Assembly (NCBI GenBank): GCA_903927345.1
Contig: CAIYMO010000049.1
Location: forward strand, 124,001 to 188,000
Source: an uncultured Armatimonadota bacterium
GTDB taxonomy: Bacteria; Armatimonadota; Fimbriimonadia; Fimbriimonadales; Fimbriimonadaceae
Length of the DNA stretch: 64,000 bases
Direction of reading: 5' to 3'
Under the pieces are notes generated by a model, which saw only the letters and a list, made by a program, of their open reading frames with translations, was not told the DNA's origin and did no database searches. Shown here in pieces: positions 48,382-64,000 of the stretch; the first letter of the stretch is position 1; every line of letters starts with the position of its first letter. Position numbers and translations under genes: made by a program.

Positions 48382-51170
48382 AACATGTCCTCCTCTTCAC
48401 TTGCACCTTGGGAACGGCGGCACAGATCGCTGACATTACAAAACGCACAGTGATCGCCCGGTGTGGGAAGCATTTGCCCCGAGCAGGTGCTTCGGAGTCC
48501 CTCGATGAACAGGCCTTTTAGAGTCGTTCTGAGGTCATCGCGGGTTGCCTCACCTTCGCCCAGATTGATGACGGTCAGCGCGTCGGTAGAACGCGGATGC
48601 GCAGAATCATCGGGGATATAGATGATTTTTGTTCGTCGATCTCCCAGACTTTCGATTTCGATTTCGACTTCGTGGACGCCGACCCACGCCGATTCGATCA
48701 TTGAGCCGAACTCAAGAAGTAGGTCGTCGCGGTTGGAGGTGGTCTTCTTTTCAGGTGCGTTCAGGCGATAAAGGTGTAAGGTCCGGCGAGAGTTGGCTTC
48801 GGTGACCCCAGCGAGGCGCTCTTTGTATGCGGTTGCAGGGTTGAAGTCTTCGAGACGGCCGCCGATTTTGGTTGTCAGGCAGTCGCGATGCCATTGCTCT
48901 CGGGACATGAACTCCCGTTCAATCAGCCCTGAAAACACTCGTTCCGCACCTTGCTCCAGGGGATCGAGCTCCCAAGCGGGCAGCTTTGTCCGTATCTCGT
49001 CCAGCACGCCTTGGTATGCCGCTCGTAGGGCGGTAGCGGCGGATTCGGGATCGGGTGCTTTGAGAAGCTGCGCCATCTCGGGGACATAGAGGAGCCTTCG
49101 CCAATAGTCCCCCTTTTCGTGGGGCGTTGGGAGTTTGCGCTGAGCCAGGAATTGGAAGGCGCATTTTTGCATTGCCCGGAGCTCGCGTGGCCGAATCGGT
49201 GACTTGTCAAACCGGATGACCTCCTTGGCAGGTTCGGTTGCAATGTGGTTCTCGGGCGGCGACTTTGGAGCTGAAAGCAGGGCGGTTGAGAGAGCTCGGT
49301 CTGGCTCCAATTCGCACTCTGACGGAGGTGGCAGCAGGGACCGACGAGGGTGCGAAAACTCCTGAAGATTGGAGCAAATTTTACGAATTTCTCCCAGGTA
49401 GAACGCCGCGATGTTATCCCGGTCACCATCGATTTGGGGATAGCTGAGAACGAGGCCCTTGGATGGGCAGGCGCACAGGCGATAGAAATGGTCTCGCTCG
49501 GCGGCGGCGGTGTCGAAGCTGTTCGTGAGCGGCGGGTTTGCTTGGAATGCGGCGAGGTCATCGTCGCTCAGAATTGGGTTTTCGGAGCGGCGGCGAGGGA
49601 ACGCTCCTTCGAGCAATCCGAGGGCGATCACGTAGTCGGTAAGGCCGATTTCGTCGACGCTCGTGACGACTTCGATACCATCGGGCGGCTTCGGAACGCT
49701 CGCATCGCCGGAGTCAAGAACCTGCTTGAGCACCTTGATCCAGGTCGCAAAGGCGATTGGCTCGGGGCGGTTAGCATGGCGGACAACAGCATCTTGGCCA
49801 AGTGCGGCGAGGAGAGCGGTGAATGCGCGTTGATCCCGTCCATCGTGCGATCGCTGGATTACGGTTTGGAACCAGGGCGCTTGCTCGATGGAGTTGCGGA
49901 CGAAGGTGTGCCAGTCAAGGGCGGTTCGTTGCTCGCTGGCGATGGTCGATCTTAGTGAGCGGAGATGAGTAACCGTTTCGGCGAGCACTTCGGCACCTTC
50001 CTTTTCAGCCACAAGCTCGGTGAGGTCATCCCATTCGTTGCCGCCGCGAAGGTGGGCTTGCTCGATGAGGTTTGCGGTTTCTGAGTTATGGGCGAGTCCC
50101 AGATATCCGGTCTTGAGAAGCGGCGTGAGCTTCCTTACGTCATTGGATTCAAGCAGGTCGAACAGGGCGAGAAGGCTTTTGATAAAGCCATTTGCAAGAA
50201 GCGGTGTGCGCCTTGTTAAGCGAACGGGGACCCGCATTCGTTGGCTGGCAGCGATGAGCACGGGTAGGTATGTGTCGCGATCTCTTGCGAAAATCGTGAC
50301 GCTTCCGGTTCCGGTGAGGGCAACGGCTCTGCGAAGTGCCCACTCGGCTTCGGCGAAGGGGTCGCCAACAGTGTGAATTTCGACAAGTTCGAGGTCGGGG
50401 CCGTCAGTTTCAAACTCAGTAAAGAGATTGTTGAGCAGTCGATTCCCTTGACCAGGTGATGTCTTGGGCTTGTTGACGAATTCGGCGGTGACTTGAGAGG
50501 CTCGGAAAATTAGCGCGTCGGTGGCGTGTCGATCGAGGACCAGCTGCACTTCGGCGCCTTGGCTGGATAGCCAGGTGAGCCATTTGAGAGCGAGTGGGTG
50601 GAGCTCGCCTCGGTTAAAGATCAAGAGCCGGGCTTCTTGACCGTCCAGATCGAGGGCTTCGTCAAGGCAAGCTTTCATCAGGGCCGATGCGGTGGACGCA
50701 GAGGCTTCGGCGAGTGTGCGTTCGACTTCGGTTGCGATGGCGTGGAGGGCTTCGGCTTTGGCACCGGTGAATCCGTCAGAGACGGAATCGAAGCCGATAT
50801 CCCAGTGCTGGAATTGACGTAGGGCGTCGCGGACGACTTCGTGGAATCCAGCCTTGTCACCGACTTTGCTGAAGGGACCAAGTGATGGGAGCGACTCACA
50901 GGCGAGCTCGATTGCAGTGAGGACTTGGCGGGAAGACGCGAGCCTGGGGCTACTTCCGTGGAGCTGGGTGTGGACTTGGCGGACAAATTCGCCAAACGGC
51001 TTCAGATCGACCAACGTGGAATCGCCGAGATAAGTACGCAACGCCCCCAGGTAGGAGTCGGAAAACGAGGTCACAACCCCGTAGCTTTTTCGGCCAAAGC
51101 GCTCGACGAGACCAGCCGCAATGCTCGGAGAAGGAATTGTTTGGACGACCTCAAATTTTCCCTTTGCCAT
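48378..51170 (-). CDS. AddB-like protein with Fe-S nuclease fold, catalytic motif not found
   Basis: A 930-residue partner of the AddA-like helicase. The N-terminal half is a helicase-like scaffold without a Walker A (FGRKSYGVVTSFSDSYLGAL near the usual place), with VVTSVDEIGLTDYVIALGL and LEGAFPRRRSENPILSDDDL in the position of the AddB REGLLRK-like segment. The C-terminal quarter has the AddB Fe-S layout: Cys in LRAMQKCAFQFLAQ (about 668) and CAFCNVSDLC (about 907, 910, 916). The expected ...DxK nuclease core between them (usually DYKT) is not present; the aligned place reads ALTVINLGEGEA. The ATG at 51170 follows TACACT by nine bases. Confidence 0.82.
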   Translation of the reverse strand: MAKGKFEVVQTIPSPSIAAGLVERFGRKSYGVVTSFSDSYLGALRTYLGDSTLVDLKPFGEFVRQVHTQLHGSSPRLASSRQVLTAIELACESLPSLGPFSKVGDKAGFHEVVRDALRQFQHWDIGFDSVSDGFTGAKAEALHAIATEVERTLAEASASTASALMKACLDEALDLDGQEARLLIFNRGELHPLALKWLTWLSSQGAEVQLVLDRHATDALIFRASQVTAEFVNKPKTSPGQGNRLLNNLFTEFETDGPDLELVEIHTVGDPFAEAEWALRRAVALTGTGSVTIFARDRDTYLPVLIAASQRMRVPVRLTRRTPLLANGFIKSLLALFDLLESNDVRKLTPLLKTGYLGLAHNSETANLIEQAHLRGGNEWDDLTELVAEKEGAEVLAETVTHLRSLRSTIASEQRTALDWHTFVRNSIEQAPWFQTVIQRSHDGRDQRAFTALLAALGQDAVVRHANRPEPIAFATWIKVLKQVLDSGDASVPKPPDGIEVVTSVDEIGLTDYVIALGLLEGAFPRRRSENPILSDDDLAAFQANPPLTNSFDTAAAERDHFYRLCACPSKGLVLSYPQIDGDRDNIAAFYLGEIRKICSNLQEFSHPRRSLLPPPSECELEPDRALSTALLSAPKSPPENHIATEPAKEVIRFDKSPIRPRELRAMQKCAFQFLAQRKLPTPHEKGDYWRRLLYVPEMAQLLKAPDPESAATALRAAYQGVLDEIRTKLPAWELDPLEQGAERVFSGLIEREFMSREQWHRDCLTTKIGGRLEDFNPATAYKERLAGVTEANSRRTLHLYRLNAPEKKTTSNRDDLLLEFGSMIESAWVGVHEVEIEIESLGDRRTKIIYIPDDSAHPRSTDALTVINLGEGEATRDDLRTTLKGLFIEGLRSTCSGQMLPTPGDHCAFCNVSDLCRRSQGASEEEDMF

Positions 51171-51195
51171 TCCCCTACAAGTGTAACATGAGCGG
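51171..51195. promoter_or_regulatory. 25-base divergent promoter with interlocked -10 boxes
   Basis: AGTGTAACAT at 51180-51189 carries TAACAT for the plus-strand gene (gap of 6 to its GTG) and, on the minus strand, TACACT (gap of 9 to its ATG); they share two positions. The spacing of the two start codons equals that of the pair at 44,476/44,502. Confidence 0.6.
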
Positions 51196-51756
51196 GTGAT
51201 CTGGTCGCGCCGGCGGAGGTGGATGGGAAATATTGTTCCGCTTGTTCCGAGTGTGATTTGCGCCGTTTTGGGCTACGGTTTAGGTCTCGGCGTTTGGAGC
51301 ATTGGACTCGGGGCGGCGGTTTCTTTACCGCTCATCAGCCGATTTGGATTTTGGGAGAACGCCCTTATCCGAGCCGAGCTTCTCGAGAAGTTTGCTAAAG
51401 GCGGAATCTTGGTTGGGATCGTCTATGAACAGCCTGCGGATTGGCTTGATGCTCATGCAGAAATAGGATTGCTCAACATCGAGAAATCGATGATTATTGT
51501 CCAGACCGAAGAACATCGACTCAAGGTTCCACTCAATTCGCAATCGAGTCTGCGAAGGAAGTTCAATATCCACCAACTCGTTGGCCTTGGGGGATGGATC
51601 GTGGTGAGTAATCCGGGCGTTCCTGATCTGCTCATCGAGAGCCGAGAAGCGGACACCATGTTCCAGAGCAAGCTCAGGACGAACGAACTTTTTGAGACGC
51701 TGAAAAAGGAAAAAGGGGGCTCCGAAGAGCCCCCGATTTCGAATCAAGGTGTCTGA
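51196..51756 (+). CDS. Membrane protein of unknown function
   Basis: A 186-residue protein: basic N-terminus (WSRRRRWMG), two adjacent hydrophobic segments (about 12-30 and 33-48) forming a hairpin anchor, then a soluble domain of about 130 residues with beta-rich character (KSMIIVQTEEHRLKVPLNSQSS; GLGGWIVVSNPGVPDLLIES) that resembles a PH-like or small beta-barrel module. No known family is recognised. The start is GTG. Its last codons overlap the terminator of the convergent flagellin gene, so the end of the protein (KKEKGGSEEPPIS) is shaped by that hairpin. Confidence 0.7.
   Translation: MIWSRRRRWMGNIVPLVPSVICAVLGYGLGLGVWSIGLGAAVSLPLISRFGFWENALIRAELLEKFAKGGILVGIVYEQPADWLDAHAEIGLLNIEKSMIIVQTEEHRLKVPLNSQSSLRRKFNIHQLVGLGGWIVVSNPGVPDLLIESREADTMFQSKLRTNELFETLKKEKGGSEEPPISNQGV
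51715..51734 (-). terminator. Terminator of the minus-strand flagellin gene
   Basis: GGGGGCTC pairs with GAGCCCCC around CGAA; on the minus strand it is followed by TTTTTCCTTTTT. It lies inside the coding end of the gene at 51196-51756. Confidence 0.88.
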
Positions 51757-51758
51757 GC

Positions 51759-53186
51759 TTATCGCAGGAGCGAAAGAACCGACTGACCGCCCTGGTTTGC
51801 CTGTCCGAGGATGGACATTCCAGCTTGCTGCATAACCTGCAACTTGGTGTAGTTGGTCATTTCGTTGGCAACGTCGAGGTCTCGGATGGAGGACTCGGAA
51901 GCCGACAGGTTCTCTCTCATGTTGGTAAGCGACCGGCTGTTCGTTTCAAGAACGTTTCGCTGGAAGTTACCAATCTTGCCGCGCATTGCCGATACTTCTT
52001 CAATCGCCTTGTCAAGGACTGCAAGTGCGCTGGTTGCGCCCTGAGCAGTTGAAAGGTCAAGGTTGTTTACCGTGGTACCGGTGACAACACCCGAACCGAG
52101 CTGACCGGTAGACATGTTTCGGAGAGCAAGGTTGGCGGTGACACCAGAGAGGAATCCAATCTGGAAGTTCGAATCCGCAGCCACAACTCGTCCGACAGCA
52201 GCAGCAGCCGAGACAGCGTTTCCACCTTCACCAATGTTCAGAGTGTTACCGTTAGCGTCGGTAAGGGTCAGACCGTCTGCACCAGATCGTCCACCAGTGA
52301 ACAGAGCAGCAACACCACCGATGGTGACTGTTGCAGCAGCATTAACACCCGAGACGCTCGCCGTGGTGTTTGCAGCGGTGCTGACAACACCAGTGGTGTC
52401 CGTGAAGGTGATCGACCTGTTTGCGCCAGTTTGTACTGCCTGGAAGGTGAGCTGGTTACCAGTTGCATTCCAAGAAGCCGTGACGCCGGTTTGTGCCGAA
52501 GCCGCGTTGAAAACGTTGGCCAAGGAAGCACCGGTAGTACCCGACGAGATGTTGAAGTTGACGCCGTTGAGAGCAACCGTACCGGATGCAAGAGCGCCAG
52601 CAGTGAGCAACGATGTCGCGGTGTACAGTGCACGGGTCGCAGCGGTGGTCTGCTGAAGGGTGATGAGACCGTTCGCAGTGATCGAAGTGGTACCGAGGGC
52701 ACCGCCGAAGCTGAAACCTGAAACCTTGGTCGCGTTCGAGATCTGCGTGGTGGTACCAGCAGAACCGTCCAGAAGCTTTCGACCCGAGTAGGTAACGTTT
52801 CCAGCAATTCGGTCAATCGACTGAATGATGGACGTGACCTGATCTTGGTTCGCAGCAACTTGCGCAGCCGTAAGGGTAGCCGAGTTACCGGAAGCGATTG
52901 CAAGTCCTCGAGCGTCGCTCAGAAGCTTGTTCATTTCTCCAAGAGCGTTCTCTGCGGTCTTTGCGTAGTTCATCGCTTCTTGGTTGTTCTTCAGAGCAGA
53001 GTCCATCGAGTTGATCTGCGCTCGGAAGAGCTCCGAAGAGATCAATCCTGCTGGATCGTCAGATGCATCTTTGATTCGAAGACCTGAGCTGAGCTTGCCC
53101 ATGGACTTCTCCATAAGGTTTGAAGCTTGGTTGACGCTGTTATAGGCGCTGAGCGCACTTGTGTTACTATTGATTCGAAAAGCCAT
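51759..53186 (-). CDS. Flagellin (copy A)
   Basis: A 475-residue flagellar filament protein. The N-terminal D0/D1 helix starts MAFRINSNTSALSAYNSVNQ and includes KLSSGLRIKDASDDPAGLIS and the conserved ARGLAIASGNSATLT; the C-terminal D1/D0 ends NMRENLSASESSIRDLDVAN, MTNYTKLQVMQQAGMSILGQ and ANQGGQSVLSLLR. The centre (about 165-365) is Thr/Ala/Gly-rich, the exposed D2/D3 part. A strong GGAGG ribosome site precedes the ATG at 53186; the frame is open to 53357 but the ribosome site and family start settle the ATG. It is very similar over its whole length to copy B at 60,531, in reverse orientation. Confidence 0.96.
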   Translation of the reverse strand: MAFRINSNTSALSAYNSVNQASNLMEKSMGKLSSGLRIKDASDDPAGLISSELFRAQINSMDSALKNNQEAMNYAKTAENALGEMNKLLSDARGLAIASGNSATLTAAQVAANQDQVTSIIQSIDRIAGNVTYSGRKLLDGSAGTTTQISNATKVSGFSFGGALGTTSITANGLITLQQTTAATRALYTATSLLTAGALASGTVALNGVNFNISSGTTGASLANVFNAASAQTGVTASWNATGNQLTFQAVQTGANRSITFTDTTGVVSTAANTTASVSGVNAAATVTIGGVAALFTGGRSGADGLTLTDANGNTLNIGEGGNAVSAAAAVGRVVAADSNFQIGFLSGVTANLALRNMSTGQLGSGVVTGTTVNNLDLSTAQGATSALAVLDKAIEEVSAMRGKIGNFQRNVLETNSRSLTNMRENLSASESSIRDLDVANEMTNYTKLQVMQQAGMSILGQANQGGQSVLSLLR

Positions 53187-53388
53187 TTCGATTCCTCCGT
53201 GATTGTCTATGGACCGTGACTGTGGACTTCCTTGCCCTTCAGTCTCCGGAAACTCCCCGTCTCCGTGAACTTGATGGCGGCCCGCCAAACTAGCCCGGGT
53301 AAGGCTTTCCATCCGTATTTGAGCGGATACCTGGTAATTACACGGTGGTTCGAACAAACTGATAGAGTTACCAGCTAGTAATGTTTAC
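53187..53388 (-). promoter_or_regulatory. Upstream region of flagellin copy A
   Basis: On the minus strand GTAAA (53388-53384), nine bases, then CTGGTAA (53374-53368) and an AT-rich tail; the same arrangement precedes copy B. It lies about 190 bases before the start codon and touches the 3' end of the VOC gene. The long leader ends in a GGAGG ribosome site. Confidence 0.4.
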
Positions 53389-53759
53389 AGGGGGGCGTAG
53401 ATGTCCACTTTGTTCCCATCGGGGTCAAGGACCTGGGCGTAGCGTTGACCCCAGAAAGCATCCCAAGGTTCGGTGACCCCTGGGAACCCAGCACTGATAA
53501 CGGCTCCGTAGGTTCGATCGACCGCTTCGGGCGTCCCTGCGTTGAACGCCAGTCCCATCCGCTGACCAACGGGAGTCGTCCAATCTCCGAGTTTCTGCAT
53601 GAGCGCGAGCGAGTCGAGTGCAAGACGCATGCCATTTTCAAACTCCGCCTCGATGTGATCCTCGCCGTTAGGATCTGGAAAGGGGCAGCCTAGCAGACGA
53701 TAAAAGCGAAGAGATGCCTCGAGGTCAGACGAAGTGATGCCAACAAAATCCCACTGCAT
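53385..53759 (-). CDS. VOC (glyoxalase/bleomycin resistance) family protein
   Basis: A 124-residue protein with the two beta-alpha-beta-beta-beta modules of the vicinal oxygen chelate fold: WDFVGITSSDLEASLRFYRLLG and the second FNAGTPEAVDRTYGAVISAG, GVTEPWDAFWGQRYAQVLDPDGNKVDIYAPL. The FWGQRYAQVLDPDGN ending is typical of the fosfomycin/glyoxalase-like group of unknown substrate. It is upstream of the flagellin copy A on the same strand and starts six bases after a CATAAT box. Confidence 0.88.
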   Translation of the reverse strand: MQWDFVGITSSDLEASLRFYRLLGCPFPDPNGEDHIEAEFENGMRLALDSLALMQKLGDWTTPVGQRMGLAFNAGTPEAVDRTYGAVISAGFPGVTEPWDAFWGQRYAQVLDPDGNKVDIYAPL

Positions 53760-53765
53760 TGGGAG

Positions 53766-53771
53766 ATTATG
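53766..53771 (-). promoter_or_regulatory. -10 box of the VOC gene
   Basis: Minus-strand CATAAT, 6 bases before the ATG at 53759. Confidence 0.5.
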
Positions 53772-53786
53772 CAGACAATTGTCTAC

Positions 53787-54731
53787 TTAAACAAGCTTTG
53801 CTTCGACGATTGCCTCATCGTAGAGGTCTTCAATCATCGGGAGGCGAGCAATGCCGCTTCCGTCGGTCATGGCGGTGGCTGCACCCGCTGCAAGACCCCA
53901 GCGGAGCGCGACTTCGGGCGGCTTTCCGGTGTCGATTCCCCAGAGGATGCCTGCGATCATGGAGTCACCGCTACCGATCGTACTGGTCGTCGGAACCTTG
54001 GGGGATCGCCCGACCCAGACTCCGCCCTCTGTAGCCATGACGGCACCAGAGCTGCCCCTCGAGATCACCGCGATTTTGGTTCCGCCACCGATCCGTTGGT
54101 GTAAGTTCAGAACGGCTTCGACGGCTTCAAGATCGCTTTCGATAGGAACTCCGAGGAGTCGGCTTGCTTCTGCCGCGTTGGGTTTGATGAAATCTGGTGA
54201 CGCCAGCATTCCGTGCTTTTGGGCAAAACCGTCAGCATCCAGAATGACCCGTACGCCAGCTTCATGGAACAGCTCGCCGAGGATTTTGAAGGCGTCATCC
54301 GGAACACCCGGCGGAAGCGAACCTCCGAGGGCGGCCCAGCGCGCACCGCGGGCGAGTTCTTTGCAATCGACGAGGAGTTTTTCCCACTCGGTAGGCAGAA
54401 TATCAGGACCCTTACTGTTTAAGGTCGTGGGAGGAGTACCCGAGTTATCTTCGATCGAGAAGTTGGTTCGCGTTTCGCCGGCAATTTTGACGAACGCATC
54501 TTCGACTCCTTCGTGCTCGAGGACGTGGCAAATCGTTCCCGCAGCGGGCCCGCCCAGAAATCCTGTGGCAGCGGTGTCTCCGCCTAGCTCCGCGTAAACG
54601 CGACTGACGTTGACGCCCTTTCCGCCGGCGTCCTTTTCAACCCGCATAACACGGTTGGTATCTCCAACGGCAAACTTTTCAACGAACAGTGCGTGGTCAA
54701 CGCAGGGGTTGAGGGTGACTGAGACTAGCAT
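53787..54731 (-). CDS. fruK: 1-phosphofructokinase-like PfkB family sugar kinase
   Basis: A 314-residue ribokinase-fold kinase of the FruK/LacC/PfkB type. Evidence is VTLNPCVDHALFVEKF at the start, KDAGGKGVNVSRVYAELGG (sugar-binding GGKGxN), TNFSIEDNSGTPPTTLN, ALGGSLPPGVPDDAF, DADGFAQK, IKPNAAEASRLLG and the catalytic motif TIGSGDSMIAGILWG (GxGD). The enzyme phosphorylates fructose 1-phosphate, tagatose 6-phosphate or fructose 6-phosphate. It is three bases downstream of pfkA, so two different phosphofructokinases are co-transcribed. No PTS genes are near, so a second fructose-6-phosphate kinase is as likely as FruK. Confidence 0.85.
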   Translation of the reverse strand: MLVSVTLNPCVDHALFVEKFAVGDTNRVMRVEKDAGGKGVNVSRVYAELGGDTAATGFLGGPAAGTICHVLEHEGVEDAFVKIAGETRTNFSIEDNSGTPPTTLNSKGPDILPTEWEKLLVDCKELARGARWAALGGSLPPGVPDDAFKILGELFHEAGVRVILDADGFAQKHGMLASPDFIKPNAAEASRLLGVPIESDLEAVEAVLNLHQRIGGGTKIAVISRGSSGAVMATEGGVWVGRSPKVPTTSTIGSGDSMIAGILWGIDTGKPPEVALRWGLAAGAATAMTDGSGIARLPMIEDLYDEAIVEAKLV

Positions 54732-54733
54732 GA

Positions 54734-55696
54734 CTAACTGGACATCACTTCGGCGAGAAGAAGCTTTTCGGGATCGATCGCTCGTTCGGTGCTGAGGACG
54801 TATGTGAGAGGGTGTGACACTAGCTTGGAGCCATCGACCCCCGCCATCTCTCCCTTGAATCCGCTCAGAAGACGATTGGTCGCCAAGGCTCCCAGTCGAA
54901 GGGCGAGGACTCGGTCGAACACGGTGGGGCTTCCGCCGCGTTGCAAGTGACCCAGGACAAGATATCGTGTGTCAAAGCCTGTGTTCTTTTCGATGAATAG
55001 CTTGACGTCGCTTGCCCGCGCGGCGCCTTCGGCGACGATGATGATTGAGCTTCGCTTCCCTTTTTCGGCGGCGTGGCGCAAATTATTGGTGATGTCGAGC
55101 AAGGAATAAGGGACTTCGGGGATCAGGATGGCTTCGGCACCGCCAGCCAGTCCAGATTCGATGGCGATAAACCCGTTGCGTCGACCCATGACTTCGATGA
55201 CAAAGACTCGCTCGTGCGAGTAGGCAGTGTCTCGAACACGGTCGATTGCTTCCACCGAGATATTGACGGCGGTGTCGAAGCCGATGCTGTAGTCGGTGCC
55301 ACTGATGTCGTTATCGATTGATCCAGGGACTCCCATCACCGGGAAATCGAACTCTTCTTGAAGCTTGAGCGCACCGGTTAGCGAACCATCTCCACCGATG
55401 ACGACAAGACCGTCGATCTCGTTCTTCTTCAGAACGCCGAGAGCTTTGACGCGGCCTTCGGGGGTTCGGAATTCGGCACTTCGAGCGGAACGGAGGATGG
55501 TGCCCCCACGATCGATGATTCCACCGACGGTTTTGGATTCCATTAACTGGGATTCGTCGTTAATGACGCCTTCCCAGCCGTGAGAGAAGCCGATTACTTC
55601 GGCTCCGCGATGCAAAGCAGCACGCACAACGGCGCGTATCGCTGCATTCATGCCGGGGGCGTCGCCGCCGCTTGTGATGACGCCAATTCGCTTCAC
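54734..55696 (-). CDS. pfkA: 6-phosphofructokinase
   Basis: A 320-residue glycolytic kinase of the bacterial PfkA type. Motifs are ITSGGDAPGMNAAIRAVVRA (ATP site), VVIGGDGSLTGA (GGDGS), VPGSIDNDISGTDYSIGFDTA (catalytic Asp; the Gly in PGSIDND marks ATP rather than PPi enzymes), VIEVMGRRNGFIA and YLVLGHLQRGGSP with the effector and substrate residues. Length is typical of the short tetrameric enzyme. The GTG start is preceded by CATAAT eight bases upstream. fruK-like gene follows. Confidence 0.96.
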   Translation of the reverse strand: MKRIGVITSGGDAPGMNAAIRAVVRAALHRGAEVIGFSHGWEGVINDESQLMESKTVGGIIDRGGTILRSARSAEFRTPEGRVKALGVLKKNEIDGLVVIGGDGSLTGALKLQEEFDFPVMGVPGSIDNDISGTDYSIGFDTAVNISVEAIDRVRDTAYSHERVFVIEVMGRRNGFIAIESGLAGGAEAILIPEVPYSLLDITNNLRHAAEKGKRSSIIIVAEGAARASDVKLFIEKNTGFDTRYLVLGHLQRGGSPTVFDRVLALRLGALATNRLLSGFKGEMAGVDGSKLVSHPLTYVLSTERAIDPEKLLLAEVMSS

Positions 55697-55704
55697 TGCT
55701 ACTG

Positions 55705-55710
55705 ATTATG
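55705..55710 (-). promoter_or_regulatory. -10 box of the pfkA-fruK unit
   Basis: Minus-strand CATAAT, 8 bases before the GTG at 55696. Confidence 0.5.
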
Positions 55711-55748
55711 CCCTAGGCTCCGGTACGATTGGGTTCAAGGAGCGGACA

Positions 55749-55955
55749 TTGCGAACGAAGTTCTTGCAGATTGCAATTCTAGCCCCACTCGGCGGCCTCA
55801 TCGCTGCCATTTGGTGGCTTGGAACGGAAAATCTGCCAATCGGTGGAGACGCTCGTCACTTCTTTGTTCTTGGTTTAAGCTGGATCTCGCTCCCGATCGT
55901 CATCGTTGCTCTGAGCGTAATCCTATCGAAGTTTTCTCGGAGACACCACCGATGA
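55749..55955 (+). CDS. Small two-helix membrane protein
   Basis: A 68-residue protein from a TTG preceded by AAGGAG. Two hydrophobic helices (about 6-24, LQIAILAPLGGLIAAIWWLG, and about 36-58, FFVLGLSWISLPIVIVALSVI) are joined by a short loop and end in a basic tail (SKFSRRHHR). Nothing else can be said of its function. It precedes the CBS-DUF1385 gene by 19 bases. The frame extends upstream into pfkA, but the ribosome site fixes the TTG. Confidence 0.6.
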   Translation: MRTKFLQIAILAPLGGLIAAIWWLGTENLPIGGDARHFFVLGLSWISLPIVIVALSVILSKFSRRHHR

Positions 55956-55974
55956 CCTGCCACAATGAGTTCAA

Positions 55975-57066
55975 ATGATTCTTGACCGGCTCAATCAACC
56001 CGCCGGTCGATTTATGCGTCCTTGTCCGGTGGCCGAGACATTTTCCAGCATCGCGGTGGCAGCGGACAAGATGGAGTCGGCTGGGCTTCCGATTTTGCCG
56101 ATTGTGCGCGATGGGCGCTACATTGGAGTTCTGACCCAGGCCGCGATTCTGGCTTCCCTTTCCTCTGATGAGGCGGCTCCGGTTGGCGATTTCGCGCGGG
56201 ATTGGCTTTCAATTCCTCCATATGTAACCGGCGCCGAAGCAATGCGCAAATTGGAGGCGGCCGGAGGCTTAGTCGTCGTCGTCGCGGATGACGGAGAAGT
56301 GTGCGGAATCCTGAGTGCCTCCGCCTTCCTCCACTCTGACCACGAGCGGGTGAAGCCTCCGATTGTGGGCGGGATGGCGACTCCTTTTGGCGTTTATCTG
56401 ACGACTGGGGCAATCGGGGCCGGGAAAGGTGGTTGGAATTTGGTGTTCACGGGTGTCGCGATGTTTTCGGCGATGCTGATCGGCGAAATTGCATTTTTGC
56501 TGGCAAGTGCTCAACTCCCCTCAAACTCCGCGTGGACGGACGCGTTGGCTCTGTTGCCCATTGTTAGCCTGATCGTGATGTTTCGGCTTTTTCCGCTGTC
56601 TGGATACCATGCAGCTGAGCACCAAGTGGTTCATGCGATTGAGCAAGACGAGCCGCTTTTGCCTGATGTCGTTCGGCGCATGCCCCGTGTACACCCGCGT
56701 TGCGGAACGAATATCGGAGTTGGAGTTTCCATGCTCTTAGGAATATCGCAGACGCGATGGATACCATGGGACGATGTTCGATTGCTGGTGGCGGTGATTC
56801 TAACCTTGTTCCTTTGGCGCCCCATCGGCGGCTTCGTCCAACAGTACGTCACAACCAAGCCTGCGACACCAAAGCAAATTCAGAGTGGCATTGATGCGGC
56901 TACTGAGCTCCTCCTCAAGTTCGAATCGGCGTCAAAACGACAGGCAACGCCTTGGACCCGGCTACTGAACAGCGGAGTGTTTCATGTCATCGGTGGCGCA
57001 CTTTTGGCGTACGTGATAGTAAGTCTGCTCGCGATGCCTCTGGGGATCAAGTTCTTCAGTTTGTGA
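55975..57066 (+). CDS. CBS-pair / DUF1385 fusion membrane protein
   Basis: A 363-residue protein. The N-terminus holds two CBS modules (about 10-65 and 70-125; MRPCPVAETFSSIAVAADKM, LPIVRDGRYIGVLTQAAIL, VVVVADDGEVCGILSASAFL), which bind adenosine nucleotides. From about 128 a DUF1385 membrane domain follows: PPIVGGMATPFGVYL, two helices (160-185, 188-208), then SGYHAAEHQVVHAIEQDEPL and RMPRVHPRCGTNIGV, the conserved HxAEH and HPRCGT motifs that look metal-binding, and two more helices near 270 and 340. DUF1385 proteins have been called metal-dependent enzymes without proof. Fusion to a CBS pair suggests adenine nucleotide control. CACAAT lies eight bases before the ATG. Confidence 0.85.
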   Translation: MILDRLNQPAGRFMRPCPVAETFSSIAVAADKMESAGLPILPIVRDGRYIGVLTQAAILASLSSDEAAPVGDFARDWLSIPPYVTGAEAMRKLEAAGGLVVVVADDGEVCGILSASAFLHSDHERVKPPIVGGMATPFGVYLTTGAIGAGKGGWNLVFTGVAMFSAMLIGEIAFLLASAQLPSNSAWTDALALLPIVSLIVMFRLFPLSGYHAAEHQVVHAIEQDEPLLPDVVRRMPRVHPRCGTNIGVGVSMLLGISQTRWIPWDDVRLLVAVILTLFLWRPIGGFVQQYVTTKPATPKQIQSGIDAATELLLKFESASKRQATPWTRLLNSGVFHVIGGALLAYVIVSLLAMPLGIKFFSL

Positions 57067-57090
57067 GCTCGGGTATGATTTGGGGTCATT

Positions 57091-57576
57091 GTGGCTTTTT
57101 TCGGTAACGTCGTTTTGTTTCTAGCACTGATCGTAGCGGTCGTGTTCTCGCTGTTGGTTCTGGTAACCGGCAAGGGAGATGCGATGAGCGGTGGCGGAAG
57201 CGTCCGAACCACATTCAAGGGTAAAGCGAGTTTCGATGACATCATCTCGAAATGGACCCTTATCATGGGCGTTTCGTTCATGGCTCTCGTTCTTCTCTAT
57301 ACGGTAGTTTCAAACCGAGTCAACGAGGCGAACCTTTCGGTCGTCCCAGGTTCATCAGCGGCAGCTCCAGAGTCGAACTCCTCTGCACCGCAGCCTGCCG
57401 ATTCAAACAAACCGGCAGAAGCAGCGAACACTCCGGCACCTGATGCTAACAAGCCAGCCGAAGCGGCAAACGCTCCTGCAGAAGCAACGAACGCACCCGC
57501 AACCAGCGATACTAATAAGCCTGCAGCCGGCGCAAATGCTCCTGCGGCTGATGCTAACGCTCCTGCAGCAAACTAG
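57091..57576 (+). CDS. secG: Preprotein translocase subunit SecG with Ala/Pro/Asn-rich tail
   Basis: SecG is the small, non-essential partner of SecYE. Residues 1-75 match the family: TM1 (about 4-26), then GKGDAMSGGGSVRTTFKGKA with the conserved Gly-rich loop, and TM2 (about 55-74). From about 90 on the protein continues for 70 residues as a low-complexity tail in which units such as NKPAEAANAPAE, TNAPA and ADANAPAA repeat. Usual SecG ends soon after TM2. The tail would lie outside the membrane on the side of the C-terminus. Start is GTG. The stop overlaps the convergent selB-like gene by four bases. Confidence 0.85.
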   Translation: MAFFGNVVLFLALIVAVVFSLLVLVTGKGDAMSGGGSVRTTFKGKASFDDIISKWTLIMGVSFMALVLLYTVVSNRVNEANLSVVPGSSAAAPESNSSAPQPADSNKPAEAANTPAPDANKPAEAANAPAEATNAPATSDTNKPAAGANAPAADANAPAAN

Positions 57577-59360
57577 TTTGGTTTCGCGACTCGGCGAGTG
57601 TCCTGGTCGCGAATCGTAAATCCACTCTTGTCGAAGTGCTCCAAAATGGGGATCACGAATCGCCTTGACGTGTCCAAAAAGTCTCGTAGTTCGGACGCGT
57701 TGAACTCCCTTTCGCCGGCCCACAGCGCAACCTTTCGCTTGAGCTTATCAAGCTGATCGAGTGTGTAGTAGGTGCCGTCGGAGACTTCGACGAGTCTCCC
57801 GGCATATGCGCCAAGTCTCATGATCTCGTCGACGGCTTGAGTTGGGGTGACGAGTGCTTTGGCAACTTCGGAGATGTAGGGCGCATTGATCCCGTGACGA
57901 TCAAGCTCAATTTCGACTCGCGAAAGGAAGCTATCCTGCTTACCGGTGAGCTGAATTCTGAAGTCGACCATCCGCACTCTCGATCCTTCGACATCAATCT
58001 TTTTGAGGGCGGCGAGTTGAGCAACAATAAGGTCGAGACACTTTGCATCCCACCGGCGATTCATGTTTTCCATGACGAGCTCAGCGGGCTGGAAAGCCAC
58101 GGTCGGCTCTTTGACGTGAAGTTCGCTGAGGCAACCAAGGAATCGCTGGGCTTCTCGGAGGAAAACATCCGGCGTGAACCAAGTTCCGCCAAAGCTCATG
58201 GCTCTTCGCTGACCTTTCAGCTCGGCAAAGTCGTCACCAAGATCCTGCTGGGTTACCCCCATCAGTTTGCAAATCTCGTGGGTCATCACCCCCTCGCTTC
58301 GGTCGTTTAGAATTCGGAGAATTGCTTCTGTCGGATTATCTGTATCCCATTCAAACACTGCCTCCTGGCGGCGTTGAAGGGTTGCCGAAAGACTAGTGAC
58401 CACGCCACCTCCCAACACAAGTGGAGGATGCATTTGACGGATAATCAGCGGTTGTCCGGGAAGAGCCGCGATCCTTTCATTCACACGGATTTGGGCGAGA
58501 CTCGGGGACAGATCACTGGGGAACAGCCTTCCTGTTACCTCGTCAGTTCCGATATTGACCCGAATTTCGGCGGCGTAGCTGGGTTGGTGCTGCCACTGGA
58601 CCTCTGCTTCAAAGAACTCAGTTGAGCCCATGTCGTCGATGGACCCGACGAGCATTCCGGAGCGAAGTTTGTATTGATCGATATCCAGCAGGGTCATTGA
58701 GACGCGACTACCGGCGTCCATCAGCGTAAAGACATCGTCAGTTTTACTGACTGACCGCATGGTGGCAACATGGCCCCCTGGGAAAATGCTGGCTCTCGAA
58801 CCGGCCTGTGGCAGTCCTTTTGCGATGACACCGGTGACGACATAACCTTGACGAGGGAGCGTATCAACAGAATCGATGGCCATGTACCAGTTGAACCCGC
58901 CGGGCTTAGGGCCGACTTGCTTTATCGCTTCCTTAATCGCGGCCTGAATGTCATCGGTTTGGTCGACGTCAAAGACTTTGGCGGAACAGAAGCGAGTTGG
59001 CGCCAGAAGGTTGAGAAGTTCGGGAGGAGCGATCCGACCGCGCGTCACAATGATGAGCGAACTCACAGGGGCGCCAATCATGACTTCTACAAACTCCCGC
59101 CAGGTGGGATGATTGGCGTCGTTCGGACCAATACAGACGACAGCAACGTCGGTGAGCAAAGCCGTTGCATACGCGTGGTGCAGGTATCGCTCGTGCCCAG
59201 GAGTGTCGACCAAGGTGGCTCGTAACTCGGCCGAATCCCAAGAATAGTAGTGACAGGTACTCGTCAGCAGGGTCTGCCTTGTGGGATTCCCCAAAAGAGT
59301 GTCCACCAGGCTGGATTTGCCCGCCTCGTGAGGCCCAAAAACTCCGACTACGACACCCAT
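57573..59360 (-). CDS. SelB-like elongation factor with degenerate GTPase motifs
   Basis: A 595-residue SelB-family protein. The G1 loop is FGPHEAGKSSL (about 8-18; SelB has GHVDHGKT), G3 is VDTPGHERYLHHAY (about 51-64), but the RGMTID-type switch I is absent and only 34 residues separate G1 and G3. At the G4 place (NKxD/TKxD) stands TRGR (106-109). The EF-Tu-like domain 2 follows (AIDSVDTLPRQGYVVTGVIA) and the C-terminus carries the SelB winged helices, ending with ASELRDFLDTSRRFVIPILE and SGFTIRDQDTRRV. SelB brings Sec-tRNA to UGA codons. No selA, selC or selD is in the window. Guanine recognition looks lost, so it may bind another nucleotide or have another role. Confidence 0.82.
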   Translation of the reverse strand: MGVVVGVFGPHEAGKSSLVDTLLGNPTRQTLLTSTCHYYSWDSAELRATLVDTPGHERYLHHAYATALLTDVAVVCIGPNDANHPTWREFVEVMIGAPVSSLIIVTRGRIAPPELLNLLAPTRFCSAKVFDVDQTDDIQAAIKEAIKQVGPKPGGFNWYMAIDSVDTLPRQGYVVTGVIAKGLPQAGSRASIFPGGHVATMRSVSKTDDVFTLMDAGSRVSMTLLDIDQYKLRSGMLVGSIDDMGSTEFFEAEVQWQHQPSYAAEIRVNIGTDEVTGRLFPSDLSPSLAQIRVNERIAALPGQPLIIRQMHPPLVLGGGVVTSLSATLQRRQEAVFEWDTDNPTEAILRILNDRSEGVMTHEICKLMGVTQQDLGDDFAELKGQRRAMSFGGTWFTPDVFLREAQRFLGCLSELHVKEPTVAFQPAELVMENMNRRWDAKCLDLIVAQLAALKKIDVEGSRVRMVDFRIQLTGKQDSFLSRVEIELDRHGINAPYISEVAKALVTPTQAVDEIMRLGAYAGRLVEVSDGTYYTLDQLDKLKRKVALWAGEREFNASELRDFLDTSRRFVIPILEHFDKSGFTIRDQDTRRVAKPN

Positions 59361-59366
59361 AGATGA

Positions 59367-60251
59367 TTACAGCACTAATGCAGGGTATTCGCGATACTCC
59401 ACAACCTCATTTCGGCTGATCCAGAGGGGAAATTCACCTTTTGTGGTCGCCGCACCGAAATCACCGTCCTTTCGGAGTGCGAACACGACACAGGGCAACG
59501 TCATTGATTCGGGCTGCCGCCTCATCATGTGGCGGATCGTTTCTTCGCATGCTTCAAGTGCGGACATGCCTGCTTCCATGTTTCGTACTGTTCGGAACGA
59601 TGCGCTGGCCTTCCAGAGTTCCTCGCCCAATCCGGTGGCTCCGGCAGCGCCGATCTCATCATCGGCGTAGATGCCTGCACCAATGATCGGAGAGTCTCCT
59701 ACTCGGCCGGGAAGCTTCCATGCCAGACCACTTGTCGCGGATGCTGCGACAAGATGGGGTTGTCCGAGGTCTTCAAGCGCAAGCATCGTGACCGTATCGT
59801 GGCTCTCCTGAGAGGTGTGGACATAGAACTTATCCGCATCTCCTCTTCGCCACTCATCATATTTCGCGATGTTTTCGGGAGTCATCAAGTTGATTGGCTC
59901 CATTCCGAGGGAGATGCCGTACCGTCTTGCTTGGTCTCCAGAGAGCATCACATGGGGAGTCTTCTCCATTACCGCGCGCGCGAGGGAGATCGTGGGGCAC
60001 AGACCACGGACAGAACAGACCGCCCCCGCGTTAAGATCTCTTCCGTCCATGATCGATGCATCGAGCTCTAACTCTCCATCCGCATTTGGAAGCGACCCCA
60101 GGCCGATCGCCAGGAGCTCTGGATCCAGTTCGCAGGCGGCAAGTCCTTTCTCGACCATGGTGATCAGGTCTGCTCCGGCTCGGCGGGCTGCCCAGGCGGC
60201 GTCCATTCCGACCTTGCCTGGCTCCTTCCAAGAAACGAGAAGAGTTGTCAT
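59367..60251 (-). CDS. Glycosylasparaginase / isoaspartyl peptidase-like Ntn hydrolase
   Basis: A 294-residue Ntn hydrolase of the N4-(beta-N-acetylglucosaminyl)-L-asparaginase family. The autocleavage site is SHDTVTMLALEDLGQPHLVA, where Thr (about residue 153) becomes the N-terminal nucleophile; before it lies the alpha chain (WAARRAGADLITMVEKGLAACE; GSLPNADGELELDASIMDG), after it the beta chain with SATSGLAWKLPGRVGDSPIIGAG and GLGEELWKAS. Members cleave N-linked GlcNAc-Asn or beta-aspartyl peptides. There is no signal peptide. It is six bases upstream of the selB-like gene on the same strand and starts seven bases after TAAACT. Confidence 0.9.
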   Translation of the reverse strand: MTTLLVSWKEPGKVGMDAAWAARRAGADLITMVEKGLAACELDPELLAIGLGSLPNADGELELDASIMDGRDLNAGAVCSVRGLCPTISLARAVMEKTPHVMLSGDQARRYGISLGMEPINLMTPENIAKYDEWRRGDADKFYVHTSQESHDTVTMLALEDLGQPHLVAASATSGLAWKLPGRVGDSPIIGAGIYADDEIGAAGATGLGEELWKASASFRTVRNMEAGMSALEACEETIRHMMRRQPESMTLPCVVFALRKDGDFGAATTKGEFPLWISRNEVVEYREYPALVL

Positions 60252-60530
60252 GGGCGAGAGTTTACAGGTTTATCGAAAGAACTTTCCGAATTCAAGCTGA
60301 GTTAATTTGAACCTGAAACGGCTGATCCGCGAATCAAAAACAAGTAAATCTACCAATACTGGTAATTTTACTAGGGTGGTAATTGTGCTGGGGATGGAAA
60401 CAAGTAAATGAACGAGGATCGTTGAACCGGCGATCTCGATCACGAAACCGATTGAGGAATCGAAAGAGGGATCGTTTTTTCGGAAACCAAGGAATGGTGG
60501 AAGGTCTGGTTCACGACACACGGAGGTCAC
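60252..60530 (+). promoter_or_regulatory. Upstream region of flagellin copy B with repeats
   Basis: AAACAAGTAAAT occurs at 60338-60349 and 60398-60409, exactly 60 bases apart. GTAAA (60344-60348), ten bases, then CTGGTAA (60359-60365) parallels the copy A upstream region; TACCA-ATAC-TGGTA (60351-60364) is a small dyad. A leader of about 150 bases ends in the GGAGG ribosome site. Confidence 0.45.
60259..60264 (-). promoter_or_regulatory. -10 box of the glycosylasparaginase gene
   Basis: Minus-strand TAAACT, 7 bases before the ATG at 60251. Confidence 0.55.
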
Positions 60531-61961
60531 ATGTCATTTCGAATCAACACTAACGTCGGCGCACTCAGCGCATTCAATAGCGTCAATCAAGTCTCAGACC
60601 AGCTCAGCAAGTCCCAAGGCAAGCTCAGCTCAGGTCTTCGCATCAAGGATGCATCAGACGATCCAGCAGGATTGATCTCTTCGGAGCTCTTCCGCTCACA
60701 GATCAACTCGATGGATGCCGCACTGCGAAACAACCAAGAGGCTCTTAACTATGCAAAGACCGCAGAGAACGCTCTCGGCGAAATGAGCAAGCTACTCAGC
60801 GACGCTCGAGGACTCACCATCGCTTCCGGTAACTCGGCTACCCTTACGGCTGCCCAAGTTGCTGCGAACCAAGATCAGATCAACTCGATCATCTCGTCGA
60901 TTGACCGAATTTCGACCACGGTTACCTACTCGGGACGAAAGCTCCTGGACGGTTCCGCTGGAACGACGGTTCAAATCTCTAACCAAACCAAGTTGAGCGG
61001 ATTCAGCTTCGGTGGCTCGCTGGGAACCACTTCGATCACCTCGAACGGTCTCATCACGCTTCAGCAGACAGTTGCGGCAACCCGTGCACTGTACACTGCC
61101 ACCTCGTTGCTCACCGCTGGTGCACTCCAGTCCGGTACAGTTGCGCTCAACGGTGTCAACTTCAACATCTCGGCAGGTACCACTGGTGCTTCCTTGGCCA
61201 ACGTCTTCAACGCAGCTTCGGCTCAGACTGGCGTCACGGCATCTTGGAACGCAGCAGGCAACCAGCTCACCTTCCAATCGGTCCAGACCGGTTCAAACCG
61301 ACAGATCACCTTCACAGACACCACTGGTGTTGTCAGCTCCGCTGCAAACACCACTGCTAACGTGGTTGGTGTGGATGCTGCCGCAACTGTCACCATCGGA
61401 GGCGTCTCTGCGCTCTTCACTGGTGGACGATCTGGTGCAGACGGACTTACTCTCACCGACTCAAACGGCAACAAGATGCTGGTTGGAGAAGGCGGAAACG
61501 GAGTCTCTGCAGCCGCAGCTGTCGGACGAGTCATGGCTCAGGACTCGAACTTCCAAATCGGATTCCTTTCTGGCGTCACCGCCAACTTGGCACTCCGAAA
61601 CATGGGATCGAGCCAGCTGGGAACTGGAATCGTCGCCGGTACCACCATCAACAACCTGGACGTCTCCACTGCACAGAACGCGACAAACGCTCTCGCTGTC
61701 ATCGACAAGGCGATTGAAGAAGTCAGCTCAATGCGTGGGAAGATTGGTAACTTCCAGCGAAACGTTCTCGAAACGAACAGCCGGTCTCTGACCAGCATGA
61801 GAGAGAACCTCTCGGCTTCCGAGTCCTCCATCCGTGACCTCGACGTCGCCGAAGAGATGACTACCTACACGAAGCTCCAAGTTATGTCTCAAGCAGGAAT
61901 GTCCATCCTCGGACAAGCAAACCAGTCCGGTCAAGGAGTTCTTTCCCTTCTCCGCGGCTAA
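60531..61961 (+). CDS. Flagellin (copy B)
   Basis: A 476-residue flagellin closely related to copy A over its full length, including the central variable part, with most differences conservative. The ends are MSFRINTNVGALSAFNSVNQ and NQSGQGVLSLLRG, and the middle contains SGTVALNGVNFNISAGTTGA and LFTGGRSGADGLTLTDSNGN. It assembles the flagellar filament through the FliC export route; the chaperone FliS and cap FliD are not in this window. GGAGG ribosome site six bases before the ATG, unlike the leaderless genes around it. Terminator follows. Two flagellins may form a mixed or segmented filament or be alternated by recombination. Confidence 0.96.
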   Translation: MSFRINTNVGALSAFNSVNQVSDQLSKSQGKLSSGLRIKDASDDPAGLISSELFRSQINSMDAALRNNQEALNYAKTAENALGEMSKLLSDARGLTIASGNSATLTAAQVAANQDQINSIISSIDRISTTVTYSGRKLLDGSAGTTVQISNQTKLSGFSFGGSLGTTSITSNGLITLQQTVAATRALYTATSLLTAGALQSGTVALNGVNFNISAGTTGASLANVFNAASAQTGVTASWNAAGNQLTFQSVQTGSNRQITFTDTTGVVSSAANTTANVVGVDAAATVTIGGVSALFTGGRSGADGLTLTDSNGNKMLVGEGGNGVSAAAAVGRVMAQDSNFQIGFLSGVTANLALRNMGSSQLGTGIVAGTTINNLDVSTAQNATNALAVIDKAIEEVSSMRGKIGNFQRNVLETNSRSLTSMRENLSASESSIRDLDVAEEMTTYTKLQVMSQAGMSILGQANQSGQGVLSLLRG

Positions 61962-61992
61962 GCAAACTTTGCACCTCGAAAGACAAGACCAA

Positions 61993-62010
61993 CCCCACCT
62001 TCGGGTGGGG
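61993..62010 (+). terminator. Terminator of flagellin copy B
   Basis: CCCCACC pairs with GGTGGGG around TTCG, followed by a T-rich CTTTCTTGTTTG. Confidence 0.88.
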
Positions 62011-62101
62011 CTTTCTTGTTTGTCCAGGTCGGGTTTTTTTCGCGTGCTGTTTTAGATCGATACGAACTGCTCGCAACAGAAACCCATCGTCATCCGTCTA
62101 G

Positions 62102-62107
62102 TAAAAT
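62102..62107 (+). promoter_or_regulatory. -10 box of recG
   Basis: TAAAAT, 9 bases before the ATG at 62117. Confidence 0.5.
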
Positions 62108-62116
62108 CGCAAGGTT

Positions 62117-64000
62117 ATGGGCGGCGGACTTGAGACAGAGGTTCAGTTTGTTAAAGGGGTTGGTCCTCGGTTAGCGAAGCTATACACCAAACTCGGGGTC
62201 GTGACAGTTGATGACCTTCTGTTCCACCTTCCTCGCAAGTATCAAGATCGCCGGAATATTCCTCCGATCGCCAAAGCGAGACCGGGCGAGGTCGTGACCG
62301 TTCGGGGTCGGTTAAGGCGAGTTGAGGCCCGACCGATCAGCGGAGGCAGAGTCATTCTCAAGGCAATCATCGAGGATGAGAGTGGCGCGATCAACCTAAC
62401 ATGGTTCAACCAACCTTGGGTTCGCAAGCAACTAGAGGAGTCGAGTGGCGACATTATCGCCTACGGTCTAGTAAAGGCCGGCACCCATCTTGACGAGATT
62501 GCAGCTCCAGAGTGGGAATCCGTTGAGGACGAGGACGGTATAGACGGATTTGCTCGAATCGTGCCGCTCTATCCGCTCACGGAAGGATTGCCACAGAAAC
62601 TCGCGCGACGTGCAGCGCAGGCTGCGGTTGATTCATTTATCAATCTTGTTGAGGAGCCCCTTCCAAAATCTCTACTCGAAAGTCAGAAGCTGAAAGGCGT
62701 TCAGTGGTGCCTTCGGCAGATTCACAATCCCGAAAACGAGGAAGCACGGATCCAGGCTCGGCGGCGGCTCGTGTTTGAGGAGTTTCTGTATTTACAACTA
62801 GAGTTGGCCCTTCGGCGATCTGAAACTCAACAGGAACTCGGGATCGCGTTTCCTGTCGATGCCCTCATTGCCGGCGAAGATCCTGCGCCTCCCGCACCAG
62901 CAAAGGCAGATCGAAAAGTCGAGGCGGCGGAGAATCTCTTCAACCTACTCAACGAAGAGAAGCGCAAAGGTGAACCACTTTGGGAGCAGATCGACCGTAT
63001 GCTTCCCTTCGCTTTGACCGGAGCCCAACGGCGCGTCATCGGAGAGGTGTTTGAGGACATGCGACTTCCCCACCCGATGAACAGGCTGGTCCAAGGTGAT
63101 GTTGGTGCGGGAAAGACGGCGGTCGCGGCTTGTTGCATGCTCGCGGCAGTGCGAAGCGGATACCAGGCAGCCCTCATGGCACCCACCGAAATTCTTGCGG
63201 AACAGCACGCCAAAGGTCTTCGGCGGCTCCTGGAACCGCTCGGAATCCAGGTTGATCTATTGGTCGGAAAGCTTAACTCGAGAGAACGAAAGCACACCTA
63301 CCAGAATGTGCGCGATGGATCGTGTCAGATCGCGGTTGGGACTCATGCCTTGATTCAAGACGGGGTCGAGTTCAAGAACTTGGGATTTGTTGTTGTCGAT
63401 GAGCAGCATCGATTCGGCGTGTTGCAGCGGAAGGCGCTCCGCGATAAGGGTCTGGGGAATCCGGATGTCTTGGTCATGACCGCCACTCCGATCCCACGAA
63501 CGTTGACGATGACTCTGTACGGTGATCTCGATTTGAGCGTGATTGATGAGCTTCCTCCGGGAAGAAAGCCGATCAAGACTCATTTCAAACGTCGGGCAGA
63601 CCGAGGTCCGGTCTATGAGAATGTTCGAGCGTTGCTCGACCAAGGGCGCCAAGCTTACGTTGTTTGCCCGATGGTCAGTGAAAGCGAGAAGATGATGGCT
63701 CAGGCCGCTGAGGAGCTCTACGCCGAGCTGTCAAACGGCAGTTTTTCGGATAAGCGAGTCGGATTGTTGCATGGTCAGATGAAGCCGGTAGAGAAGGACG
63801 CAGTGATGGACGCTTTTCGTAAGCATGAGCTGGATGTGCTCGTCGCCACGACGGTCATCGAAGTTGGCGTTGACGTACCCAATGCGAGCGTGATGATCAT
63901 TGAGGACGCGAACCGATTTGGGCTATCTCAGCTACACCAGCTACGCGGTCGAGTTGGACGAGGTGAGCACCAATCCTATTGCGTGCTTGTTGCCGATGTA
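62117..64000 (+). CDS. recG: ATP-dependent DNA helicase RecG (3' end outside window)
   Basis: RecG remodels stalled replication forks and Holliday junctions. The first 628 codons are present. The start MGGGLETEVQFVKGVGPRLA, then LGVVTVDDLLFHLPRKYQD and the wedge OB-fold (about 60-150) come before the helicase core: GAQRRVIGEVFEDM, Walker A LVQGDVGAGKTAVAACCML, ALMAPTEILAEQHAKGL, the DEQH motif II in VVVDEQHRFGVLQR, MTATPIPRTLTMTLYGDLDLSVIDELPPGRKPI and, near the edge, VATTVIEVGVDVPNASVMII and LRGRVGRGEHQSYC. The C-terminal TRG hairpin lies beyond base 64,000. A start leaderless promoter is suggested by TAAAAT. Confidence 0.97.
   Translation, partial: MGGGLETEVQFVKGVGPRLAKLYTKLGVVTVDDLLFHLPRKYQDRRNIPPIAKARPGEVVTVRGRLRRVEARPISGGRVILKAIIEDESGAINLTWFNQPWVRKQLEESSGDIIAYGLVKAGTHLDEIAAPEWESVEDEDGIDGFARIVPLYPLTEGLPQKLARRAAQAAVDSFINLVEEPLPKSLLESQKLKGVQWCLRQIHNPENEEARIQARRRLVFEEFLYLQLELALRRSETQQELGIAFPVDALIAGEDPAPPAPAKADRKVEAAENLFNLLNEEKRKGEPLWEQIDRMLPFALTGAQRRVIGEVFEDMRLPHPMNRLVQGDVGAGKTAVAACCMLAAVRSGYQAALMAPTEILAEQHAKGLRRLLEPLGIQVDLLVGKLNSRERKHTYQNVRDGSCQIAVGTHALIQDGVEFKNLGFVVVDEQHRFGVLQRKALRDKGLGNPDVLVMTATPIPRTLTMTLYGDLDLSVIDELPPGRKPIKTHFKRRADRGPVYENVRALLDQGRQAYVVCPMVSESEKMMAQAAEELYAELSNGSFSDKRVGLLHGQMKPVEKDAVMDAFRKHELDVLVATTVIEVGVDVPNASVMIIEDANRFGLSQLHQLRGRVGRGEHQSYCVLVADV

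Follow-up and report, generated by a model that had tools for sequence, protein, structure and literature searches.

Winged helices WH3 and WH4 of ordinary SelB grip a hairpin in the mRNA, the SECIS. SelB itself is taken as a signature gene of selenocysteine (Sec) decoding (Romero et al., 2005, PMC1273633; Margus et al., 2007, PMC1780047), and a SelB homologue in a genome from which the rest of the Sec machinery is missing raises the question of what such a protein does. Here, we describe a gene of this kind from a stretch of 64,000 nucleotides (the window) in a genome of Armatimonadota (G000; 3.1 Mb, 57 contigs, completeness 100%), together with its relatives in the class Fimbriimonadia (class name inferred; named records are Fimbriimonadaceae/Fimbriimonadales). 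Our verdict is that the gene is one stage of a series spanning the class, in which the RNA-binding tail of SelB persists after selenocysteine is lost.

The SelB homologue and its genome

The first-pass annotation had placed the gene correctly at 57573-59360; we add that it is read from the minus strand, with its ATG at 59360 and its stop codon at 57573-57575, and that no other SelB homologue is found in the genome (features in Table 1). The protein matches Pfam SelB-wing_3 (E 1e-15) and, weakly over its full length, NCBIfam TIGR00475 selB (E 1.9e-27, 96.3 bits, below the 242.25-bit cut-off). Its best PDB matches are to SelB, with EF1A and EF-Tu also among the best, and its AlphaFold2 (AF2) model is a confident SelB fold (mean pLDDT 89.8). 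All four domains of the SelB architecture are present, namely the EF1A-like G domain, beta-barrel domains 2 and 3 (D2, D3) and the winged-helix (WH) domain IV. By locus, tree and fold the protein is orthologous to bacterial SelB, whose four winged helices and SECIS-binding module it keeps; it differs from bacterial SelB in having no Sec system, in the loss of G4 and G5, in a rewritten switch I and in its score (96 vs 242 bits). A SecG gene on the plus strand (57091-57576) converges on the SelB homologue with a 4-base overlap at the ends, and encodes a long tail rich in Pro, Ala, Asn and Lys with near repeats (NKPAEAANAPA).

Table 1. Position and basis of the features assigned in the window.
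Feature	Coordinates	Strand	Basis
Sec-independent SelB homologue (pseudo-translation-factor), 595 aa	57573..59360	-	domain matches, PDB matches, relatives
Degenerate G domain, residues 1-150	58911..59360	-	12/63 SelB-conserved residues kept; AF2 fold intact
G1/P-loop GPHEAGKS, residues 9-16	59313..59336	-	alignment; identical in three species
Switch I region, residues 25-36, shortened and rewritten; replaces ADRLPEEKxRGMTID	59253..59288	-	alignment, conservation
G3 DTPGH, residues 52-56; DTPGY in two closest relatives	59193..59207	-	alignment, conservation
G4 position TRGR, residues 106-109; VRGR in two closest relatives; 9-residue and G5 deletions	59034..59045	-	alignment
Beta-barrel domain 2, residues 151-245	58626..58910	-	domain identity, conservation
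Beta-barrel domain 3, residues 246-340	58341..58625	-	AF2 model, conservation
Winged helices WH1-WH2, residues 341-470	57951..58340	-	relatives, alignment, class profile search
Winged helices WH3-WH4, residues 471-595; SECIS-binding module in SelB	57576..57950	-	conservation, fold, class profile search
Asparaginase_2 (isoaspartyl peptidase family) gene	59367..60251	-	6 bases upstream of SelB homologue, same strand

The earlier remark that no selenocysteine genes lie nearby extends to the whole genome: no selA, selD or tRNA-Sec was found anywhere in G000, nor in its two close relatives, G015 and G018, and the tRNA-Sec, selA and selD by which membership of SelB is judged are all lacking. None of the three genomes gave a tRNA-Sec match better than ordinary tRNAs, also at a stricter threshold at which the control genome, G007, was detected at 6e-15. 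The same searches generally recover selA, selD and tRNA-Sec from relatives with a normal SelB. An ordinary SelB whose partner genes were missed in a 57-contig draft assembly is hardly conceivable, given the completeness of 100%, the absence of selA, selD and tRNA-Sec from both close relatives too, their detection by the same searches in Sec-using relatives and the destruction of the G motifs.

Decay of the GTPase part and selection on the protein

The G motifs were compared in an alignment of the G000 protein with 30 other SelBs, 28 SelBs of the same order serving as the normal reference. G1, GTAGHVDHGKT/S in normal SelBs, reads GVFGPHEAGKSS in G000; the first-pass reading of an altered GPHEAGKS was right as to the alteration, yet the P-loop pattern GxxxxGKS is still formally satisfied. 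The RGMTID of switch I, noted as missing, is indeed gone, ADRLPEEKxRGMTID of normal SelBs being shortened and replaced by NPTRQTLLTSTCHYY. G3 is DVPGH in normal SelBs, DTPGH in G000 and DTPGY in G015 and G018, so that G000 alone of the three species keeps G3, and the other two have lost its His, the catalytic residue of translational GTPases (PMC3037878). At G4, sisters have TRAD or TKSD, G000 has TRGR and G015 and G018 have VRGR, with a 9-residue deletion alongside; G5 (SAxTG) is deleted from the G000 protein. An intact G4 at a shifted position was looked for in the G000 alignment and not found, which upholds the earlier claim that TRGR replaces the guanine-specificity motif. Measured against the canonical set (GHVDHGK, RGMTID, DxPGH, T[KR]xD, SAxTG), G2, G4 and G5 are lost and G1 is altered. 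A defence role was rejected, the only indication being a weak match of the GTPase domain to LeoA that reflects generic P-loop similarity.

These motif changes go beyond chance, since they are common to three species whose proteins are 76-80% identical in amino acids, with synonymous sites near saturation (pS 0.66-0.94). On sequence and model, the EF-Tu-like body is best read as a putative pseudo-GTPase, predicted to fold and to keep its P-loop without G4 and G5. Whether it would use another nucleotide or none, as the first-pass annotation suggested, is secondary, because there are relatives that do entirely without the GTPase part.

Identity over the three pairs of species is 63-81% in the G domain, 85-89% in D2, 71-86% in D3, 78-84% in WH1-2 and 88-93% in WH3-4; the order is reversed in the Sec-using pair G007/G016, where the G domain is best kept (79% vs 60% for the winged helices). 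Positions conserved in at least 90% of the 28 Sec-using SelBs of the same order tell the same domains apart: the three species keep 12/63 in the G domain, 11/20 in D2, 6/8 in D3, 4/6 in WH1-2 and 12/13 in WH3-4, and three Sec-using sisters keep 57/63, 20/20, 7/8, 6/6 and 13/13, respectively. The notion of a repurposed SelB acting through its winged helices is thereby supported in part: Sec has been lost, no guanine motif remains, purifying selection acts on the protein and its winged helices are best kept.

The high identity of D2, the intact EF1A-like core fold and the precedent of archaeal aSelBL for degraded G domains (PMC3037878) would also suit a protein that, as is proposed for aSelBL, still carries a different aminoacyl-tRNA to the ribosome and does so outside a normal GTPase cycle. 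We regard such delivery as improbable: despite the identity of D2, 9/20 of its SelB-conserved residues are changed in at least one of the three species (among them R164 to S/G, F166 to D and G170 to R), switch I has been lost, and every tRNA-binding domain is missing from the independent sister lineages, which keep the winged helices.

Identity of 76-80% at near-saturated synonymous divergence means that the gene is not a pseudogene. A relic drifting to loss, the relatives being pseudogenes at differing stages of decay after the loss of Sec, would explain the degenerate G domain, the truncated genes of sister lineages, altered C-terminal ends in two genomes (G012, G017) and a weak match with a stop in another (G064), but is very improbable in view of ORFs intact at that divergence, dN/dS well under 1, and retention in almost every Sec-free genome of the class vs few outside it. 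In the window protein, purifying selection likewise still acts on the G domain and the barrels; in its clade they are therefore not pure ballast and may serve a structural or regulatory purpose.

SelB tails across the class

In a search of 60 relatives, many of those in the genus and family that lack Sec proved to have just a short ORF (~250-400 codons), which matches residues 341-592. A profile (A1) built from these short WH ORFs matched 104 of the class's 113 genomes, 86 of them among the 88 of good quality. Of the 88, 51 carry selA, and 36 of the 37 without it keep a match to the SelB C-terminus, G056 being the sole good Sec-free genome of the class that does not match the profile. In counts assembled by hand from the search tables, these 36 genomes comprise 3 with a full-length protein and a decayed G domain (the window's clade), 16 with WH1-4 only (~250 aa), 13 with WH3-4 only, as stand-alone proteins of ~110-150 aa (mini-proteins), 2 with very diverged proteins, 1 with a match at a contig edge (G039) and 1 with a weak match and internal stop (G064). 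The very diverged WH proteins are those of G087 and G088 (1.5 Mb, same family), which are not adjacent to an asparaginase gene and share other neighbours.

WH-only genomes have no Sec genes, save for selD alone in G012. A separate SelB GTPase gene was found in none of the 30 WH-only or mini-protein genomes searched, and a split SelB was rejected, the best N-terminal matches having the lengths and identities of EF-Tu, EF-G or LepA. In two WH-only proteins (L052/L053, from G012 and G017), the last 15-20 residues diverge abruptly in a frameshift-like manner, reflecting either sequencing error or the start of decay.

The asparaginase gene directly precedes selB in most Sec-using relatives, and lies directly upstream of each of the 13 WH-only genes found first and of the WH3-4 genes of family f1 (G073, G074, G076, G091, G096, G097). 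This gene marks the ancestral selB locus in f1, and the shared locus identifies the WH-only and f1 WH3-4 genes as selB cut down in place. Family f2 mini-genes have lost the asparaginase neighbour, which makes partnership with asparaginase unlikely as a general reason for retention. Three f2 mini-genes only (L116, L117 and L122, in G047, G049 and G060) adjoin a gene read by eye as one for a likely NAD(P) transhydrogenase alpha-2 subunit.

The window's clade is sister to the Sec-using G001/G002/G009 in both the WH tree (support 99/93) and the asparaginase tree (support 100/98). Monophyly of the WH-only proteins is rejected (AU p 0.033 and 0.0008 for the WH and asparaginase trees, respectively), and truncation of SelB arose more than once. 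Parsimony on the asparaginase tree (42 genomes) gives 11 changes between Sec and no Sec, only 3 of them forced by well supported branches; as the WH tree contains long branches, we claim several separate losses and no number.

Elsewhere in the phylum, 11/50 good Sec-free genomes have a SelB-wing match, mostly full-length (hand count), a figure that may miss short forms since PF09107 has a lower sensitivity than the profile built for the class. Proteins of WH1-4 only occur in family f10 in G127, G129 and G130, without selA or tRNA-Sec, and in G128, which has a borderline tRNA-Sec match. Family f12, of another class, includes full-length SelB-wing proteins in G140, G141 and G142 (98-100% complete, no selA or tRNA-Sec), which may be a further pseudo-SelB lineage, and stand-alone WH3-4 proteins in G146 and G147, the latter with selA, no tRNA-Sec match and 6% contamination. 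G290 was left out of the stand-alone list, as a true tRNA-Sec adjoins its gene.

A candidate role for the tail and its relation to known systems

The most plausible explanation, which we consider probable, is that the WH module has a Sec-independent job that outlives selenocysteine, the window protein being a SelB remnant after Sec loss. A lineage would lose selenocysteine and retain a remnant whose working part is the winged helices, above all WH3-WH4; the EF-Tu-like body would persist in the window's clade only as a scaffold or for a secondary role, and several sister lineages have discarded it and kept 250-aa WH1-4 or ~120-aa WH3-4 proteins. The job would be independent of GTP and tRNA, because sister lineages have deleted the domains for both. 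The module may still bind an RNA hairpin and could act on the translation or stability of at least one mRNA, or at the mRNA entry site of the ribosome; action on an mRNA structure through the winged helices, here predicted from homology and fold, was also the suggestion of the first-pass annotation.

The mini-proteins suggest which properties of the tail are retained. Stand-alone forms consist of tandem WH3-WH4 in the SelB-specific arrangement, and nearly all keep the SR[RK] motif of WH4. Those of family f2 are 54-80% identical, under purifying selection (dN/dS ~0.09-0.33), without the last wing of WH4, and alone in being consistently basic (pI 9.3-10.4), most stand-alone forms being neutral to acidic; the missing wing and the lack of a basic pI in most forms speak against the proposed RNA-binding job. 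Modelled with AF2 (pLDDT 96), a mini-protein superposes on SECIS-bound SelB (2uwm, 1wsu) with TM 0.82-0.83, and on DNA-binding winged-helix regulators with TM ~0.40-0.50. It is thus unlikely, if less so than tRNA delivery, that the winged helices lost the RNA role of SelB and became a DNA-binding transcription regulator: many DNA-binding proteins use a winged-helix fold, the stand-alone forms are short, and MntR, GntR and IclR-type repressors give weak structural matches, but the tandem is far closer to SelB, and the residues kept are those conserved in SelB.

The E. coli SECIS has a GGU apical loop. The SECIS in selD of Sec-using relatives likewise is a hairpin, CGGAGGUUCUCCG, with a GGU apical loop. 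A search for GGU-loop hairpins in the operon of G000, G015 and G018 found none conserved, and no RNA target, which counts against the proposed job. Because separate losses of Sec have repeatedly left one and the same fragment behind, we predict that the SelB RNA-binding tail has a second job. The chances are about even that this second function of WH3-WH4 is ancestral in the class and is also exercised by SelB of Sec-using species, as a sequence-specific regulator of mRNA hairpins independent of GTP, tRNA and Sec, with the window's clade midway. If so, each Sec loss would free all but WH3-WH4 and give a new family of ~115-aa RNA-binding proteins.

Archaeal aSelBL / EF-Pyl (MM1309) is also SelB-derived and Sec-free, with a severely disrupted G domain, and is proposed to act outside the classical GTPase cycle (PMC3037878; PMC4329189). 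The G000 protein resembles aSelBL in its disrupted GTPase domain in a genome without Sec. It is otherwise a mirror image: aSelBL keeps the tRNA-delivery body and has no C-terminal extension (PMC3037878), whereas in G000 the body decays and WH1-WH4 are kept, WH3-4 best of all; aSelBL is moreover an archaeal paralogue, and the G000 protein a bacterial orthologue left behind. The mini-proteins are natural counterparts of the mRNA-binding fragments of Moorella and E. coli SelB (1WSU, 2UWM, 2PJP; TM 0.79-0.83), but unlike these laboratory fragments they are separate genes in genomes without tRNA-Sec, their RNA binding is predicted, and the f2 forms have no last wing. No report of a Sec-free bacterial SelB or of stand-alone SelB winged helices was found in the open-access literature (which leaves most subscription journals outside its scope).

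Survival of SelB, whole or in pieces, in Sec-free species makes it a misleading marker of Sec. The stand-alone WH proteins offer natural candidates for small single-chain RNA readers of translation-factor origin, and the class shows in graded steps how a translational GTPase loses its engine.

Beyond the asparaginase gene, on the plus strand, the ~200 bases 5' of and into the start of a flagellin gene (60331-60560; gene at 60531) are ~90% identical in G015 and G018, in contrast to the near-saturated synonymous sites of the neighbouring SelB gene. Rfam at the gathering threshold gave no match in window positions 50000-64000. Parts of the element are recognisable in G001, G002 and G009, and it is absent from the second flagellin copy of the window; a leader RNA or a promoter is possible.
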